Positions 15,978 through 57,536 of a stretch of DNA of 64,000 nt are shown piece after piece. The stretch lies in the NCBI GenBank assembly GCA_003132665.1, contig PKYN01000015.1:76188-140187 (forward strand), read 5' to 3'. The notes below the pieces were generated by a model, which saw nothing but the letters and a program-made list of their open reading frames with translations, had not been told where the DNA came from and did no database searches. Both the position numbers and the translations under genes were made by a program. Origin of the DNA: Actinomycetota bacterium. Its GTDB lineage: Bacteria > Actinomycetota > Thermoleophilia > Gaiellales > Gaiellaceae. Position 1 is the first letter of the stretch, and each line of letters starts with the position of its first letter.

Positions 15978-16213
15978 CTCTCGACTTCCATTCCGGAAAT
16001 GTAGGCATCCGATATCGGTCGCGCCACCTCGCCTACGCCGACGAAAACCGTCGTCCTCCCGAAGGCTCGAGGAAAATCTCTCGCTTTCTCGGGGCGCCGC
16101 TGGCCGTGCGGCGCCGGAAGGGACAGTGTTGACCCACACGGGCCTGGAGAGTGACGTGCGGCCAGCGGTGTCAGGGCTTTCGCACGAGCGAAAGCCCGAC
16201 CGAGCAAGCGAGA

Positions 16214-16306: not shown

Positions 16307-16575
16307 ACAACGAAAGTCCGCTCCTTGCCAACGAAAGCCTGGCGACTTTCGTTGGGGGAAAGCGGCTTGCTCTTGGTCGCCGCGACCGACATGGCGGGCG
16401 CGGCTCACAAAACGCCATCCCCCGGCTCGTCCACTTCGAACACTGACCACAAATACGGTCAGCCGAGCACGCTCCTAGGAGCAGACGAGGCACCCGCGCC
16501 GAAGGTGCGGTGTCTCGTACACAGCGGTTATCCCGCGAAAAGTCTTACCCGGCTTCGCCGGCCGACTTTTCGCGG
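16307..16575 (-). repeat. structured intergenic repeat, copy A
   Basis: Read on the minus strand it contains in order: stem-loop I (16533-16575, arms CCGCGAAAAGTC and GACTTTTCGCGG), stem-loop II (16485-16518, arms starting ACGAG and ending CTCGT), a GCTCCTAGGAGC palindrome, the conserved core (16378-16420), and stem-loop III (16328-16355, CCAACGAAAG with CTTTCGTTGG). A duplicate half-arm (CAACGAAAG) follows at 16308. It is followed by tRNA-Asp. The far edge is only 18 bases from the MarP start, so any MarP promoter must lie inside the element. It fills most of the 306 bases between tRNA-Asp and MarP. Confidence 0.85.
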
Positions 16576-16593: not shown

Positions 16594-17724
16594 GTGGCTC
16601 TCGTCGACTGGCTCGCCGTGGCGTTCATCGCGTTGCTCGCTTTCGGCGGGGCCCGCAAGGGACTCATCGTTGGCGGTCTGTCGCTGGTAGGCGTGCTGGG
16701 AGGTTTGTACCTGGGCGCGCGTCTGGCCCCCGTTTTGTTCTCGGGCTCGAGTTCGCCCTACACGCCGCTGGTGGCGCTTGCGGGGGCGATGGTGCTCGCG
16801 ATTGCATTGGAGACCGCGGGCGCGCTCACGGGGAGTGTGCTCAGGGATGCGCTCAAACTTACGCCGCTCAGGCTGTTCGACGCCCTGGGCGGGCTGGTGC
16901 TTGGGGCGGCCACGGCCATCGCCGTGCTCTGGATAGTGGCTGCGGTCGCCTTCCATTTGCCGCAGACGTCGGTCGTGCGTGAGCGAGCGCGGCAATCGGC
17001 TCTGCTTTCGTCGCTGATCTCGACCCTGCCGCCTCAGGATGTCATGAGCGCCCTGGCGGGCATCGATCCCTTCCCGCTGATCGTCGGACCGGCGGCTCCG
17101 TCGCAGGCGCCCGATTCGGGCGTGCTCGCTCGCGCAAGCCTGCAGCGTAGCGAGCGGGGTGTGGTCAGGGTGAGGTCGGAAGCCTGCGGTATCGGCTACG
17201 CCGGCTCGGGTTGGGTGGCGAAGAAGGAGTACGTGGTCACCGCGGCGCACGTCATCGCCGGGGGAAGCAAGATCGATATTCAGGCTCAGGGTCACTCATC
17301 CCGCCCCGCCCGCGCCGTTGCCTTCGACGCGACCAACGATCTCGCCTTGCTCTTCGTGCCGGGGCTGGGCGTGAGACCGCTCAAGCTGGCCAGCCCGGAC
17401 TACGGCGATGCGGGAGCGGTGCTGGGCTATCCCGGCGACGGACCTTTCATAGCGGAGCCGGCGCGGGTCGGCTCGACGGCGCCCCTCTTCTCTCCGAACT
17501 ACGCCGGCACGGTCGTCAGCCGTTCGATCACGAGCTTGCGCGGCAAAGTGCGCCCCGGCGACTCGGGCGGCCCGCTCGTGAACGAGCTCGGAGCCGTCGA
17601 ACTGACGGTGTTCGGGGCGAAGAAGGGCACCGACGTCGGTTACGGCACCTCTAGTGAGCTCGCACGCGCCCTTCTCGAGCGTCGCGGTCGCGTCAGCGTC
17701 TCTACCGGCGCCTGCCTGGACTGA
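16594..17724 (+). CDS. MarP-like membrane serine protease (CvpA domain plus trypsin-like domain)
   Basis: 376 residues. The N-terminal 160 residues form a CvpA-like domain with four membrane segments (starting VDWLAVAFIALLAFGGARKG). A chymotrypsin-like periplasmic domain follows, with His in TAAHVIAGG, Asp in DATNDLALLFV and Ser in GDSGGPLV. Two cysteines flank the protease domain (EACGIGY and TGACLD), as in mycobacterial MarP, where a disulfide controls activity. MarP protects against acid and oxidative stress by cleaving cell-wall enzymes; a similar role here is inferred. The start is the GTG at 16594. Confidence 0.9.
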   Translation: MALVDWLAVAFIALLAFGGARKGLIVGGLSLVGVLGGLYLGARLAPVLFSGSSSPYTPLVALAGAMVLAIALETAGALTGSVLRDALKLTPLRLFDALGGLVLGAATAIAVLWIVAAVAFHLPQTSVVRERARQSALLSSLISTLPPQDVMSALAGIDPFPLIVGPAAPSQAPDSGVLARASLQRSERGVVRVRSEACGIGYAGSGWVAKKEYVVTAAHVIAGGSKIDIQAQGHSSRPARAVAFDATNDLALLFVPGLGVRPLKLASPDYGDAGAVLGYPGDGPFIAEPARVGSTAPLFSPNYAGTVVSRSITSLRGKVRPGDSGGPLVNELGAVELTVFGAKKGTDVGYGTSSELARALLERRGRVSVSTGACLD

Positions 17725-51906: not shown

Positions 51907-54273
51907 ATGCCGCCGGTCCCCCGCAATAAGCCGAAAAACGACACCCCGATCGAGCCCGATCCGCAGCGGAGTCAGACGCTCGAGACGCTGCTGCAAAACC
52001 TCCCCGATGCCGTCGTCCGCATCGGCAGGGACTACCGGCATGTATTCGCCAACCCCGCTTGCGAGAGAGTGCTTGGAGTTCCCGCTGCGGAGGTCATCGG
52101 CAAGAAGATGCAGGAGCTCCCCTTGCCGCCGAAGCTGCGCAAGACGTGGGAGGCGCGGGTCAAGAAGGTGCTCGAGAGCGGGGAGACGCTGGACGTCGAA
52201 GACACCTTCGAGGGCCCCACCGGCCCGCGCAGCCACGAGACGAGGCTGCTACCCGAGCGGGACGAGCGCGGCGAGATAGTGAGCGTCCTCATCGTCATCC
52301 ACGATGTCAGCGAACGTCACCGGGCCGAGAGGACGCTCAAGGAGAGCGAGGAGCGCTTCCGCGTCGCCTTCGAGGAGGCGCCGATCGCGATGCTCCTGAT
52401 CGGCGACGACGTCACCATTCGCGGAAGCAACGCCGCCGCCTGCGAGCTGCTCGGCTACGCGAAGAATGAGCTCACAGGGAAGACGATCTACGAGATCACC
52501 CATCCCGACGATCTCGAGCTGACGCGCGATGTTGCCGCGCGGATGATCGAGGGCGCCCATCCCGAGTCGACGATCGCGACCGAGAAGCGCTACCTGCGCA
52601 AGGACGGTGACGTCGTCTGGGGCCGGCTATCGGTTTCGTCCGTGCGCGACTCCGAGCAGCGCTTCGTTCAGAACATCGCGCAGATCGTCGACATAACGTC
52701 GCTCAAGCAGGCCGAGCAGGCGTTGCGCGAGCGCGAGGAACTGCAACGGCTCGTGATCGGGCACGCCAACGACGTGATCGCGGTGGTCGGTTTCGACTTC
52801 ACCATTCGCCTGGTCTCTCAGTCGGTGCGGAACGCTCTGGGCTTCGAGCCCGAGCAGCTAGTCGGCCGCAGCGTCCACGAGCTGATCGAGCCCGAGAAGT
52901 TCGAGGAACTCCAAAACGCGTTGGAAGAGATCATCGATGGCCGGCCGCCGCACACTCGCTCCTTCCGTATCAGGCACCGCGACGGCGGCTGGCGCCTGTT
53001 CGACGGCCTCGGCTCGATCGCAAGCGACGAGCGGGGCGCGCCCTCGTACGTGGTCGTGATCCTGCGCGATGTGACCGAGCGGACGTCGCTCGAACAGAAG
53101 CTTCTGATCGCCCAGAAGATGGAAGCGGTCGGCCAGCTCGCCGGCGGTGTCGCGCACGACTTCAACAACCTTCTCACTGTCATCAACGGCTTTGCCGACA
53201 TGGCGATCAAGGAGCTCGGCGACCGCGACGACCCGATCAGCCGCTACCTCGCCGAGATAGGTCACGCCGGCCGGCGCGCGGCCGAGCTGACCCAGCATCT
53301 GCTCGCCTTCAGCCGCCAGCAAGTGCTTCGGCCGGAGATCGTCGACGTCAACTCGGTCGTCGAGGAGTACGCCGTAATGCTCCGCCGCGTTCTGGGTGAG
53401 GAGATCGAGCTGTCGACGCAGCTGGAGCCGCACCTCCACACCGTCGAGGTGGATCCCGGCCAGCTCGGCCAGGTGCTGATGAACCTGGCGGTAAATGCCC
53501 GCGATGCCATGCCACACGGCGGAGCTCTCGCCATCAGCACCCGGAACGTCGCACTGAAGAAGTCGCTCCCGATCGAGTACGGAACGCTCCCGCGCGGCAG
53601 GTACGTGCTTCTCTCGGTCTCCGACAACGGCGAAGGGATGGCAGCGGAGACGCGTGCACACGTCTTCGAGCCCTTTTTCACCACCAAGGAGCCGGGCCAG
53701 GGAACCGGGCTCGGGCTGGCCACGGTGGTCGGCATCGTCGAGCAGTCGGGCGGGGCTATCGCCGTCGAGAGCGTGCCCGAGCAGGGAACGACCTTCCGTG
53801 TTTACCTGCCGCGCAGCGCGGTGGGCCGGGTCACGGAGAAGGCCGAGCTCGAGAAGTCGCAGACCGGCGCCGGCACGATCCTCATCGCCGAGGACGACCA
53901 GGCCGTACGCAAGCTGGTGGCCAAGATCCTGCTCGAGGCCGGCTACCGCGTGCTGATTGCCGCTTTGCCCAGTGAGGCGATCTCGCTGGCCGCCCGTGAG
54001 CCCTCGATCGATGTGCTCGTAACCGACGTCGTCATGCCCGAGATGAACGGTCACGAGCTGGCGCAGGGACTCCTCGCCGAGCGGCCCGACCTACGCATCC
54101 TCTACATCTCCGGCTACACGCCCGACGTCGTCCGCGACAAAGGCGTGCTAACTAACCAGGAAAGCTTTTTGCAGAAGCCTTTCACCGCCGCCGCGCTCAC
54201 GCAGGCGGTCCGCGAACTAACCGCGGAAAGTCCGCCTCGGTCCGCAGAAAGTCCGCCTCCTGCGGAGGCATGA
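51907..54273 (+). CDS. hybrid histidine kinase with three PAS domains and C-terminal receiver
   Basis: 788 residues. PAS domains lie at about 15-135, 140-265 and 275-395 (the second with EERFRVAFEEAPIAMLLIG, the third with GHANDVIAVVGFDF). The kinase core follows: H-box GGVAHDFNNLLTVINGFADM, ATPase motifs DNGEGM and GTGLGLATVVGIVEQSGG. A receiver with LVTDVVMPEMNG and FLQKPFT ends it. There are no membrane segments, so it senses a cytoplasmic cue. The last 18 residues (from TAESPPRSAESPPP) are encoded by repeat copy B, so the original C-terminus was replaced or extended by the repeat. Confidence 0.92.
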   Translation: MPPVPRNKPKNDTPIEPDPQRSQTLETLLQNLPDAVVRIGRDYRHVFANPACERVLGVPAAEVIGKKMQELPLPPKLRKTWEARVKKVLESGETLDVEDTFEGPTGPRSHETRLLPERDERGEIVSVLIVIHDVSERHRAERTLKESEERFRVAFEEAPIAMLLIGDDVTIRGSNAAACELLGYAKNELTGKTIYEITHPDDLELTRDVAARMIEGAHPESTIATEKRYLRKDGDVVWGRLSVSSVRDSEQRFVQNIAQIVDITSLKQAEQALREREELQRLVIGHANDVIAVVGFDFTIRLVSQSVRNALGFEPEQLVGRSVHELIEPEKFEELQNALEEIIDGRPPHTRSFRIRHRDGGWRLFDGLGSIASDERGAPSYVVVILRDVTERTSLEQKLLIAQKMEAVGQLAGGVAHDFNNLLTVINGFADMAIKELGDRDDPISRYLAEIGHAGRRAAELTQHLLAFSRQQVLRPEIVDVNSVVEEYAVMLRRVLGEEIELSTQLEPHLHTVEVDPGQLGQVLMNLAVNARDAMPHGGALAISTRNVALKKSLPIEYGTLPRGRYVLLSVSDNGEGMAAETRAHVFEPFFTTKEPGQGTGLGLATVVGIVEQSGGAIAVESVPEQGTTFRVYLPRSAVGRVTEKAELEKSQTGAGTILIAEDDQAVRKLVAKILLEAGYRVLIAALPSEAISLAAREPSIDVLVTDVVMPEMNGHELAQGLLAERPDLRILYISGYTPDVVRDKGVLTNQESFLQKPFTAAALTQAVRELTAESPPRSAESPPPAEA

Positions 54274-54486
54274 CGACTTTCTGCGGTGAGAAACGAAACT
54301 GAGCCGCGCCTTCGGCGCTCGGCTCAGCTGATCCCAGGAGCGGGGCGGGCTGCCGGAGTTGGGGTCAGTGTTCGAGGTGGAGGGGTCGGGGGATGGCGTT
54401 TCGTGAGCCGCGCCCGCCATGTCGGTCGCGGCGGCCGGGAGCAAAGCCGCTTTCCACCGACGAAAGTCGCCAGACTTTTATCGGCT
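54221..54486 (+). repeat. structured intergenic repeat, copy B
   Basis: Order: a duplicated half-arm (54221-54238), stem-loop I (54242-54286, CCGCAGAAAGTC with GACTTTCTGCGG, inner hairpin GCCTCC/GGAGGC), stem-loop II (54299-54327, CTGAGCCG with CGGCTCAG), the invariant core (54391-54432) and stem-loop III (54457-54484, CCGACGAAAG with an imperfect CTTTTATCGG). It overlaps the last codons of the hybrid kinase, including its stop. The 219 bases after it and before the next gene hold no gene that I can see. Confidence 0.87.
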
Positions 54487-54705
54487 AACAGCGTCCGCGA
54501 TCGGGGGATACAGCCGCCTTGCCTGTGCTCCGATAGCCGGTCTGAGTAGTGCTCTGCGGCCCTCGCTCAGTCAGATGTGGGCTCAACGCAGCGCAACGAA
54601 ACATCATCGCTTCGGTAGCCCTCTGCAGGATGCGAACACGGCGCCGATAAGACAACCGAGACTCGAATATCACATAGCATCGCGACGCTGGTCGGAGGTA
54701 ATGAG

Positions 54706-55332
54706 ATGAAGAATTTGAGATCCATGCGAATCCTTGTTCCTGTCTTTCTCGCTCTGGCTGTCGTCTTCGTTGCCGCAGCCGTCGCAGCTCCCAGCCCGGC
54801 GAAGATGGTGCTGAAGAGGCTCGACCTCTCAACGGCTTTCCTGCCGGACGGCGCCACGCAAGTGACGAACGCGGACGTCGTCGCGGGAGGCGGGGCTACC
54901 GATGCGCAGCTCGCGAGTTGGGGTCGAATCGACGGTTACAAGGTGGCGTTCAAGATCAAGACCAACCGCGCCTTGGCTAACAAGCTCATCGGCCCGATCT
55001 ACGTCGTCTCGGGCGCCAACACCTACAACACGGCGGCCGGAGCCCACGTGGCCTGGCTGGCGCAGCTTTCCGCGCTCAAGAAGACCCCCGGCATTCATAC
55101 GGCAGTAGGCCGGCGCGTAGGAAGCGAATCGAAGCTCCTCACCTACACGCAATCGGCGAAGGTGTCGGGCGGCACCGTCACCTACCTGATCTATGTCTAC
55201 ACCTGGCGCAGCGGTAGCAACACCGCATCGCTGATATGCGAGGGGTTCAAGGGCCGGATCACCAAGCAGGCGGCCGTAAAGCTCGCGCGGAAGCAGCAAT
55301 CGCGCATCAAAGCCTCTTACGCAGCCGGATAA
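54706..55332 (+). CDS. secreted hypothetical protein
   Basis: 208 residues, with GGAGG seven bases before the ATG. A clear signal peptide (MRILVPVFLALAVVFVAAAVAAP) starts the mature chain near residue 28. The mature part is basic and beta-rich (YKVAFKIK, GTVTYLIYVYTWR), with one Cys near the end. I recognise no family. The stop codon is two bases before stem-loop I of repeat copy C. Confidence 0.7.
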   Translation: MKNLRSMRILVPVFLALAVVFVAAAVAAPSPAKMVLKRLDLSTAFLPDGATQVTNADVVAGGGATDAQLASWGRIDGYKVAFKIKTNRALANKLIGPIYVVSGANTYNTAAGAHVAWLAQLSALKKTPGIHTAVGRRVGSESKLLTYTQSAKVSGGTVTYLIYVYTWRSGSNTASLICEGFKGRITKQAAVKLARKQQSRIKASYAAG

Positions 55333-55334
55333 AC

Positions 55335-55613
55335 CCGCTGAAAGTCCGCGGGCAGAGCCCGCGAAGACTTTCAGCGGTATGACCGTGATGTACGAGTCAC
55401 CGCGCCTTTGGCGCGGTGACTCGTCTGCTCCCAGGAGCGTGCTCGGCTGGCTGTCGTTGTGGTCAGTGTTCGGGGTGGACGGACCGGAGGATGGCGTTTG
55501 GTTAGCCGCGCCCGCCATGTCGGTCGCGGCGGCTAGGAGCAACCTGCTTTCCACCGACGAAAGTCGCCAGACTTTCGTCGGCTAAGGCGCGCCCGCCATG
55601 TCGGTCGCGGCTG
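55335..55613 (+). repeat. structured intergenic repeat, copy C, with extra partial core
   Basis: Stem-loop I (55335-55377, perfect 12-bp arms CCGCTGAAAGTC and GACTTTCAGCGG), stem-loop II (55392-55424, a perfect 15-bp stem with loop TTT), palindrome GCTCCCAGGAGC (55427-55438), core (55489-55531) and stem-loop III (55554-55581, perfect). A second, partial core (about 55587-55612, CGCGCCCGCCATGTCGGTCG) follows. It fills most of the gap to the next gene; the remaining 56 bases contain no recognisable feature. Confidence 0.9.
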
Positions 55614-55669
55614 CGAGGGAAAGCTTGGGATAACTCGGGATAGCCGATGCGGGCCGTAGGTTTGGGGCG

Positions 55670-56950
55670 ATGCGGGAAGCGGCTCGAGCGCTGTTGCAGA
55701 CGAATACCGAGAGTGTGGAGCTCGACGGTAAGGTCTGGCGCTACTCGGTGCCCTCGCGGCGTTCGTATCCCCACCAGTGGCTCTGGGACTCTTGCTTTCA
55801 CGCCATCGTCTGGTCGCTGTTCGATCCCGTTCGCGGTTGCGACGAGTTGCGCTCGCTCTTTCGCTGGCAGTGGCCCAACGGCTTCGTCCCTCATGTCGTT
55901 TTCTGGCATCCCGAGCGCGTCTACCTGCGCAGCTGGCACCACCTCGAGAGCCCCGACGTGTGGAGCTTCTTGCGCCGGCGCACGCCGCACACAACGGCCT
56001 TGACTCAGCCGCCGGTGCTGGCGACGGCGGTCGAGCGCCTGGTCGAGGCAGGCGCCGAGGATTTCCTGGCGGAAGCCCTGCCCGTGCTCGATCGCTACTA
56101 CCACTACCTCGCCTCCGAGCGCGACCCCGATGGGGACGGGCTGATCTCGACCATCGTGCAGTTCGAGACTGGGCTGGACTTCAGCTCGGCCTACGACAAG
56201 GCGATCGGCGCCGGCCCGCGCTCCGCGTTCAAGATCGTCGCCAACTCGCGCCGCGTCGAGATCAAGAACAAGCTCGCCGGCTACGACCTGAAGCGCATCT
56301 TCGCCCGCGAAGACCACGCCGAGGATGTGCTCGTGAACAGCATCTGGATCGACAACCTCGAGGCGCTCGCCCGTCTGGCCCGCCGCGCCGGGCAGGCCGA
56401 GCTGGCCACCTGGGCCGTGGCCAAGTCGGCCCAGGCGCTGCAGTCGCTGCTCGAACGCTGCTGGGATCCCAAGCGCGGCCTCTTCTTCAGTCTCGTCGGC
56501 TCGGCCGAGATTCGCACCGAGGCGAAGACGATCCAATGCCTGCTGCCGCTCCTCATCGAGCAGCTACCGGCCGACGTCGCGGAGCGCCTGCTCGGCCACC
56601 TGACCGATACGCACGAGTTCTGGTCGCCCTATCCCGTGCCCTCGGTCGCCCTCGACGAGCCTTCCTACACCGACGACTCCCACATCCACGGCATCCGCCT
56701 GATCTGGCGCGGCCCCTGCTCGATGAACACCAACTGGTTCCTGCACCAAGGACTGCTCCGGCACGGCGAGGCGCGCTACGCCTCCCAGCTGGCCGAGCGC
56801 TCGCACGAGCTGGTCGAGAGCGGCGGCTTCAACGAGTTCTACAACGCAAGGTCCGGGCGGCCGGTTGGGGCGAAGCGCTTCGGGTGGGCGACATTGGTAG
56901 CGGACATGCGTCCGCTACCCGCGGAAAGTCCGCCGGCTTTGCCGGCTTGA
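55670..56950 (+). CDS. MGH1-like glycoside hydrolase (GH63-type alpha-glucosidase fold)
   Basis: 426 residues. The (alpha/alpha)6-barrel pattern of GH63/MGH1 proteins is clear: YPHQWLWDSCFHAIVWSLFDP near the start, the TQPPVLATAVERLVE helix, SVALDEPSYTDDSHIHGIRLIWRGPCSMNTNWFLHQGL with the probable acid/base region, and ESGGFNEFYNARSGRPVGAKRFGW at the end. It probably trims mannosylglycerate, glucosylglycerate or a similar compatible solute. It has no signal peptide, so it is cytoplasmic. The final residues (PAESPPALPA) come from repeat copy D. Confidence 0.88.
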   Translation: MREAARALLQTNTESVELDGKVWRYSVPSRRSYPHQWLWDSCFHAIVWSLFDPVRGCDELRSLFRWQWPNGFVPHVVFWHPERVYLRSWHHLESPDVWSFLRRRTPHTTALTQPPVLATAVERLVEAGAEDFLAEALPVLDRYYHYLASERDPDGDGLISTIVQFETGLDFSSAYDKAIGAGPRSAFKIVANSRRVEIKNKLAGYDLKRIFAREDHAEDVLVNSIWIDNLEALARLARRAGQAELATWAVAKSAQALQSLLERCWDPKRGLFFSLVGSAEIRTEAKTIQCLLPLLIEQLPADVAERLLGHLTDTHEFWSPYPVPSVALDEPSYTDDSHIHGIRLIWRGPCSMNTNWFLHQGLLRHGEARYASQLAERSHELVESGGFNEFYNARSGRPVGAKRFGWATLVADMRPLPAESPPALPA

Positions 56951-57105
56951 CGACTTTCCGCGGCAGGGAAGAGACTGAGCCGCGCCTGCGGCGATCGGCT
57001 CAGGTGCTCCTACTAGCGGAATGGGCTGGCCGGGTGGTCGAGCGGGGTTCGGAGCGAGCCGGGGGATGGCGTTCGTGAGCCGCGCCCGCCATGTCGGTCG
57101 CGGCG
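56919..57105 (+). repeat. structured intergenic repeat, copy D (lacks stem-loop III)
   Basis: Stem-loop I (56919-56963, CCGCGGAAAGTC with GACTTTCCGCGG), stem-loop II (56975-57003, CTGAGCCG with CGGCTCAG) and the core (57064-57105, one T shorter in loop 1) are present. Stem-loop III is absent. The tRNA-Thr gene begins 41 bases after the core. The repeat supplies the last codons and stop of the glycoside hydrolase gene. Confidence 0.87.
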
Positions 57106-57146
57106 ATCGGCAAGGAGGTTTGCGGGGGCGCTATCCTCTTTGTCGC

Positions 57147-57219
57147 GCCGACGTAGCTCAGTTGGTAGAGCACTTCACTCGTAATGAAGGGGTCCGCGGT
57201 TCGAATCCGCGCGTCGGCT
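57147..57219 (+). tRNA. tRNA-Thr (CGT)
   Basis: Acceptor arm GCCGACG pairs with CGTCGGC; D-arm GCTCAGTTGGTAGAGC; anticodon stem CTTCA/TGAAG around CTCGTAA, anticodon CGT; T-arm CCGCG-GTTCGAATC-CGCG. It is 73 nt with discriminator T; CCA is not encoded. Repeat copy D is just upstream, and an integrase relic begins just downstream on the opposite strand, as is typical of an element that integrated at a tRNA 3' end. Confidence 0.97.
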
Positions 57220-57536
57220 TCCTCTACTGGAGCCAAACCCGGCCCACCTAACGAAGTCGGTCCAGTAGGCTCCGCGTCCTCTGAGCGTCCACTATGTGCG
57301 GCTCGCGCGGCTCGGATCGACTGTTCCGCGTCGATGTGACCCGGGCCCATCTCGTCGAAAACGTGCGCGTAAGTGCTCAGCGTGGCCTCTGGACTGTTGC
57401 CCATCTGCCGCGCGACCTCGACCACCGACTGGCCCGTATGGATCAGCAGCGAAGCGAACGAGTGCCGCAAGTCGTACGGTCGCGCACTCTCTAGCCCAAC
57501 GCCTTCTGCCGCCGGCTCGAAGCACCCGAAGCCGCC
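57220..57536 (-). pseudogene. tyrosine recombinase (phage-type integrase) C-terminal fragment
   Basis: Minus-strand frame open from about 57536. ARPYDLRHSFASLLIHTGQS holds the catalytic R-H of box II (RHSFASLL), and EATLSTYAHVFDEM holds the catalytic Tyr. The N-terminal three quarters, including the first catalytic Arg, are missing; a TAG stands in frame at 57537-57539. Downstream the frame stays open through the tRNA antisense into the repeat to 57000, so no normal C-terminus exists. It is the residue of an element once integrated at tRNA-Thr. Confidence 0.8.

Follow-up and report, generated by a model that had tools for sequence, protein, structure and literature searches.

Miniature inverted-repeat transposable elements (MITEs) are non-autonomous DNA transposons with terminal inverted repeats. 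Hairpin repeats of the tagged repetitive extragenic palindrome (REP) type have been reported mainly from Proteobacteria (PMC3733652) and form GTAG and CGTC super-families; a REP-associated tyrosine transposase (RAYT) is linked to the GTAG REPs, and CGTC REPs are reported without one. PMC2267715 and PMC4132739 contributed nothing decisive to a comparison with REPs. Here we describe a repeat in a 64,000-nucleotide stretch of DNA (the window; contig PKYN01000015.1, positions 76,188 to 140,187) from a member of the Gaiellaceae (Actinomycetota, Thermoleophilia). Two hairpins are common to the copies of this repeat family: H1, which in most placed copies adjoins a gene 3' end, and H2, which lies downstream. 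We read it as a multi-copy extragenic REP-like repeat that is, on balance, probably a non-autonomous mobile element copied into gene 3' ends by a trans-acting enzyme. This reading is favoured because of presence and absence among relatives, swapped elements at orthologous sites, a patchy and family-bound distribution, and helices whose mispairs are strand-symmetric.

Four copies lie in the window, at 16307-16575 on the minus strand (copy A) and at 54221-54486, 55335-55613 and 56919-57105 on the plus strand (copies B, C and D). A preliminary description had placed them there, and had noted correctly that a core of about 42 nt is nearly identical among them, with variation confined to one loop (loop 1). 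The four-copy family that it described is real as to those copies but larger in extent, as the draft genome holding the window (G000; 2.15 Mb in 19 contigs, 77.5% complete) alone contains 34 near-full-length copies. A hidden Markov model built from copies A-D gave 49 hits (nhmmer, E up to 1e-3) in the searched stretches of G000, which are part of the genome, and 34 of the 49 span at least 140 model positions. The remaining hits comprise fragments, tandem cores and opposite-strand readings of H1, which is palindromic. BLAST against G000 at E up to 10 returned 49 matches (40 of 69 candidates scored), and the genome contains 29 strict H2 cores. Within the window there are five exact occurrences of CGCGCCCGCCATGTCGGTCGCGGC, the 24-nt 3' portion of the core, and none in 100 shuffles of the window; the fifth occurrence, unlisted in the preliminary description, is a tandem core within copy C. 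Several copies stand at contig ends (for example G004:C3:6, G002:C26:48, G005:C78:29, G027:C70:67 and G015:C43:23). Copy numbers are therefore lower bounds, because assemblies break at copies. No Rfam family reaches its gathering score for the repeat, and the whole window yields just two tRNAs. Sub-threshold Rfam matches in 54200-57140 (E up to 10) were attributed to chance; the best of them, istR, scored 24.9 bits where the cut-off is 45. We found no published description of this repeat in a literature search that had most subscription papers outside its reach.

In the usual architecture, H1 directly adjoins a tRNA or coding gene at its 3' end, and a spacer and H2 come next. In the genus to which G000 belongs, the full element consists of H1 (an AAAGTC arm, an inner stem and a GACTTT arm), a middle with a hairpin (M1) and a conserved stretch, then GATGGCGTTT..GTGA, and then H2, which reads GCCGCGCCCG-CCATGT-CGGTCGCGGC and variants. 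Often H3, a small hairpin resembling H1, comes next, and after it another H2. RNAalifold applied to 80 copies finds double changes in each of H1, M1 and H2.

H2 is a plain hairpin of 9-10 bp. The preliminary description had instead folded the core as an H-type pseudoknot with invariant stems, pairing ATGGCG with CGCCAT (stem 1) and interleaving a second pairing (stem 2). Both pairings are possible in copies A-D; their invariance, however, was an artefact of having four copies only, and stem 2 is incorporated in H2. In an alignment of 96 distinct genus copies, each of at least 150 nt, all six pairs of stem 1 form in 27 of the 86 copies that have letters at every position. Pair 1 is unpaired in 29 of 87 cells and pair 2 in 43 of 89, and the double-changed cells, three in total, all fall in pair 1. 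In the alignment of 34 copies (A1), stem 1 has a single double-changed cell, equalled by 400 of 500 shuffles, while H2 has eight, a number reached by none of 500 shuffles. Pair 6 of H2 has A-U in place of G-C in 14 of 88 genus copies; pair 7 is unpaired in 68 of 88, G-C in 14 and C-G in 4, and hence is usually a C.U mismatch. By eye, the 5' strand of stem 1 is part of a genus-specific stretch that is not seen ahead of most cores in other genera, where the same H2 is mostly preceded by unrelated sequence. Since stem 1 lacks covariation while H2 covaries, and since the stem 1 strand is not seen ahead of most cores in other genera, we conclude that the core is a hairpin and that stem 1 is not maintained. 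The pseudoknot core was rejected on these two counts.

The mispairs in the helices bear on whether the repeat acts as RNA or as DNA. If the plus strand acted as RNA, G-U mispairs should outnumber A-C mispairs. The G-U and A-C counts are 22 and 31 in H1, 34 and 40 in M1, and 8 and 17 in H2, summing to 64:88, compared with 18:4 in 41 distinct tRNAs of the genomes G000 and G004 (Fisher p 0.0005, assuming independent cells). This tally excluded pairs that are less than 60% Watson-Crick, namely one H1 pair (19 G-U) and one M1 pair (3 G-U, 2 A-C). For the outer stems of H1 the counts are 1:1 among 47 hairpins of the genus and 2:5 among 24 from other genera. Because the mispairs are strand-symmetric, with G-U no commoner than A-C, unlike in tRNA, the covarying helices show no RNA signature. 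Such symmetry fits DNA hairpins, or a structure that would be useful on both strands.

Placement was scored with tRNAs predicted by ARAGORN and coding-like open reading frames (ORFs) selected by a rule on third-position G+C (GC3), with no gene caller. A sense tRNA stands directly ahead of H1 in 8 of the 34 G000 copies; the gap is 4-5 nt in seven of these, and the eighth predicted tRNA overlaps H1 by 7 nt. In 12 further copies of the 34, a sense coding-like ORF stops at H1. At the far end of the 34 copies there is no antisense tRNA, and antisense ORF stops number five. The preference for tRNAs (8/34) has a p value of 4e-7 with about 2100 genes assumed. Counted from the tRNAs, 10 of 44 G000 tRNA matches have a sense H2 no more than 330 nt away, with another repeat ahead of the H2 in two cases. 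Of 54 cores in other genera, 21 lie no more than 200 nt behind a sense tRNA and 4 no more than 200 nt ahead of one. At least two copies (A and the one at L021) have an H1 that faces the start of a gene or tRNA. At another locus (L003, ~1310-1370; G000 C4, before 72809) the repeat stands behind an apparent 3' half of tRNA-Gly with its 5' half missing, and ARAGORN predicts no tRNA there.

The content of orthologous sites differs among related genomes. Between the glycoside-hydrolase ORF and tRNA-Thr, where copy D lies, G000 and G005 carry the element, and G003 and G002 lack it. In G003, the counterpart of copy B is mostly gone. For most G003 copies, G000 has one at the orthologous place; those at L235 and L253 have no counterpart among the partial G000 stretches searched. 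We compared 18 paired G000/G003 sites. Five keep the element at 93-96% identity with flanks at 90-98%; five others (L195, L218, L227, L238:4183 and L249:7478) have elements at 77-85% identity with both flanks at least 8 points higher; the other eight are intermediate or have one flank that does not align. At L238:4183 the change spans from just past a TAG, which reads as the upstream stop codon, to the end of H2. Changes at two more loci are partial: at L220 H1 is identical and the rest different, and at L272 the middle is identical and the inner hairpin of H1 different. The tRNAs give a second comparison, in which 28 G000 tRNAs were set against 30 of the 41 in G004 and 25 were partnered at a ratio of at least 0.93, with upstream synteny backing the pairs. 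The repeat is present in both genomes at five paired tRNAs and in G000 only at one, and its H1 is present in G004 only at five, two of these without an H2 found. At the G004-only tRNAs, G000 carries other repeat families, except that none was recognised at C16:174316 and that C15:159827 has an element of another family (E3) fused to the H2 of this repeat.

The distribution of the repeat is patchy and bound to the family. A search of relatives with copy C matched 18 of 61 genomes, including all six of the genus; the others align chiefly at H2. The strict H2 pattern occurs in 28 of 103 family genomes and 13 of 34 genera, and its reversed control has no matches. In a sample of the class, 29 of 399 genomes match the pattern, 28 of them the same family members. 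Genome-collection records among the matches listed are mostly Thermoleophilia or Actinobacteria metagenome-assembled genomes (MAGs), many tagged fen, palsa or Chersky. Among the 80 matches listed, 12 have titles outside Thermoleophilia and unspecified Actinobacteria MAGs. All 12 lie inside open frames 229 codons or longer and have no H1 in the preceding 90 nt, and we read them as chance and not as wider spread; a thirteenth locus inspected (L225) belongs to the family and has H1. A viral contig collection lacks the core pattern, and a virus-borne origin was dropped.

Several observations weigh against a mobile DNA element at gene 3' ends. In 14 of the 34 placed copies, copy A included, H1 has no sense tRNA and no stop of a coding-like ORF at it. 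No target duplication is readable at the copy D site, the sole filled-versus-empty comparison, where the flanks have diverged. Many copies appear old and stable, since 5 of the 18 paired sites evolve at the rate of their flanks, and the partial swaps (L220 and L272) suggest gene conversion rather than transposition. Restoring both filtered pairs to the mispair tally brings G-U and A-C to about equal (86:90), and the non-covarying middle, which was left out of the tally, has 46:12. A match to the Y1 transposase family (PF01797) was not detected in G000 (77.5% complete), G003 (91%) or G005, and no other recombinase family was sought. Finally, H2, allowing up to four substitutions, was not found in 22 Y1 loci from 19 places.

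The last two points bear on whether the repeat is a classical REP, or a REP doublet forming hairpins (REPIN), moved by a RAYT-type Y1 transposase. PF01797 matches 78 of the 103 family genomes, including G001, G002 and G004, and PMC3733652 and PMC3116915 describe, for REPs and REPINs, hairpins in extragenic positions behind genes, repeats that provide stop codons, spacers of conserved length and compensatory changes. However, G000 and G003, both without a Y1 match, are the two genomes richest in copies; the four bases ahead of H2 are mostly GTGA in 25 spacers, neither GTAG nor CGTC; and H1 and H2 are unlike and co-oriented. We consider a REP proper with its RAYT very unlikely and, with the Y1 gene undetected in those two genomes and Y1 loci without H2, not supported. 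A structured RNA with a pseudoknotted core is hardly credible. Whole copies do fold better than shuffles (z -6.8 and -4.3), and the pairing is present in the four window copies, but stem 1 breaks often and does not covary, minimum-energy folds of whole copies show H2 as a plain hairpin, and the covarying helices have no G-U excess. What stands of the preliminary interpretation is a repeat family without an Rfam match and, among the three options it offered, the non-autonomous mobile element.

A further explanation is a two-part terminator, in which an H1 hairpin without a U-tract would act together with H2, or a protein bound to it, stopping the polymerase immediately beyond H1; such a function would account for retention of the repeats and perhaps for their copying. 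A scan for the consensus of a GC-rich hairpin with a U-tract gave no sites in 54000-57300 (shuffle mean 2.0), and the T-runs sit inside the 3' arm of H1. As the repeat stands behind tRNAs, H1 probably serves as terminator of the upstream gene, which would explain why insertions are retained. The spacing of the hairpins outside the genus speaks for the two-part design. Of the 51 cores preceded by 100 nt or more of sequence, 35 follow a hairpin of 9 bp or longer that ends 10-45 nt ahead of H2. The distance has a median of 26 nt, with 25 of 35 within 24-30 and a range of 11-45, despite poor conservation of the spacer sequence (mean pairwise identity 0.35, the final bases GTGA being best conserved). 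Hairpins unlike in sequence, some with the frame GAAGTCC..CATGACGACTTC, which matches 20 of 103 family genomes, and others of the form GCGAGCCGGC..GCCGGCTCGC, stand at similar distances ahead of H2. By eye, another genus (g6) has a GAAGTCC-frame H1 and a similar spacer, followed mostly by a different H2 with an apical GGGC-AAA-GCCC or GCCGGC-AAA-GCCGGC. The front of the polymerase extends about 15-18 bp; with approximately 8 nt from a bacterial terminator hairpin to the end of the RNA, this amounts to 23-26 nt. PMC12366685, the source of the 8-nt figure, also reports that yeast RNA polymerase I terminates rapidly when a roadblock halts it 8 bp beyond a hairpin. From the spacing of H1 and H2 we infer a possible roadblock role for H2. 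On the other side, about 100 nt separate H1 from H2 in the genus of the window (38 nt in one short copy), 16 of the 51 cores outside it have no such hairpin, the G-U excess expected of an RNA hairpin under selection is missing, and the H2-bound protein is putative. The two-part terminator is thus possible, although rather unlikely. A combination of the two ideas, a mobile terminator cassette whose hairpin and conserved roadblock site, one polymerase footprint downstream, replace the terminators of tRNA and protein genes by jumping or conversion, seems distinctly unlikely; if true, transcript ends in this clade would have been rewritten repeatedly by a selfish but useful element.

We continue to favour a REP-like non-autonomous DNA element. 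In such a model a trans-acting enzyme would read H2 (and H1) as single-stranded DNA hairpins, and the element swaps would be caused by re-insertion or ectopic gene conversion. Insertions may be kept because H1 acts as the transcription terminator of the gene and, in copies B and D, could also be retained for supplying its stop codon. What this Thermoleophilia lineage presents is a two-hairpin design with, outside the genus, a spacer of fixed length; the repeat strongly prefers the 3' flanks of tRNAs, and sister species carry different elements at corresponding sites. Should movement or termination be confirmed, the family would provide a natural experiment on mobile DNA rewriting gene 3' ends. 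It would also raise the question of which enzyme moves hairpin repeats lacking a RAYT; one REP super-family is likewise without a known transposase.

The four window copies differ in their parts and surroundings. Copy A has H1 at 16533..16575 (minus strand; a 12-bp outer stem with AAAAGTC/GACTTTT arms), H2 at 16379..16404 and H3 at 16328..16355, with the 5' end of tRNA-Asp (~16288) about 40 nt farther on. It is an exception in placement: H1 faces the start of a plus-strand gene (16594-17724; Colicin_V and Trypsin_2 domains in Pfam), not a gene 3' end, and the far end faces the 5' end of the tRNA-Asp. The other copies are on the plus strand. Copy B opens with an extra 5' arm of an H1 (54221..54241) ahead of the full H1 (54242..54286), which contains the stop codon (54271-54273) of ORF 51907-54273, a PAS histidine kinase/response regulator with clear Pfam domains; H2 is at 54407..54432 and H3 at 54457..54484. 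Extra 5' arms also precede full H1s at L009, L021 and L249 and in copy C of G003. Between copies B and C, ORF 54706-55332 (208 aa, without a Pfam domain) stops 2 nt before the H1 of copy C (55335..55377). This copy continues with M1, the genus-specific hairpin (55392..55424), H2 (55505..55530), H3 (55554..55581) and the second, tandem H2 core (55588..55611), which has no ATGGCG strand ahead of it. In G002 the kinase is directly followed by an element and the glycoside hydrolase. In copy D, H1 (56919..56963) contains the stop codon of the glycoside-hydrolase ORF 55670-56950 (clear Pfam domain), and H2 is at 57079..57104, with tRNA-Thr (57147) beginning about 42 nt later.

Other repeat families also stand directly behind tRNAs, and at several orthologous tRNAs the family differs between G000 and G004. 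E2 is a foldback that starts with TCTCGCTT[T/G]CTCGG, ends with CCCCGAGAAAGCGAGAG or similar, and begins directly behind the tRNA. It is found in the window at ~16078-16213 (minus strand) behind tRNA-Asp, and elsewhere in G000 at C19:69809, C19:71815, C19:77068 and C9:47008. At L306 (G002, tRNA-Thr), L326 and L331 (G004), E2 is followed by a partial second copy of the tRNA 3' end. As such a partial copy is an att-like signature of tRNA-gene integration, E2 may be a tiny integrase-dependent element. In G000, E3 (CTTCTCGACGC..GACTGCAGGATGC) occurs at C15:159827, C19:69440 and C19:149124, E4 (TCCGT..) at C19:36441 and C15:39471, and E5 (AAGCCCG..GACGTCCAAACCCC) at C9:272160 and C9:42063. The idea that H2 is a common 3' module of these repeats was dropped, as we found single chimeras only (E3-H2 at C15:159827 and E2-H2 at C9:47008, both in G000).

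Compared with described systems, the repeat resembles an intrinsic (Rho-independent) terminator in having a strong, GC-rich hairpin that immediately follows tRNA and protein genes. It differs in having no U-tract site in 54000-57300, a second conserved hairpin after H1, and a repetitive unit. The hairpin-plus-roadblock arrangement of RNA polymerase I (PMC12366685) likewise has, where the transcription unit ends, a hairpin and beyond it another DNA site. However, that system is eukaryotic and uses Reb1 and a T-rich stretch. Like MITEs, the repeat is short, non-coding, structured, present in many copies, and present or absent among relatives; H1 and H2 are nevertheless not inverted copies of each other, and no target duplication was seen at the one diverged site compared. 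The likeness to REPs and REPINs lies in the many extragenic hairpin copies (34 near-full and 29 strict H2 in G000), the covariation of H2, and positions near gene 3' ends with a stop codon sometimes supplied. Compensatory changes and length-conserved spacers are shared with REPINs as described in PMC3733652 and PMC3116915. REPs are single palindromes or inverted pairs, whereas this repeat combines two unlike hairpins in the same orientation; it has no GTAG or CGTC tag seen and no RAYT neighbour found at the examined loci, its unit is longer (~110-270 bp), and it shows a marked preference for tRNA 3' flanks.

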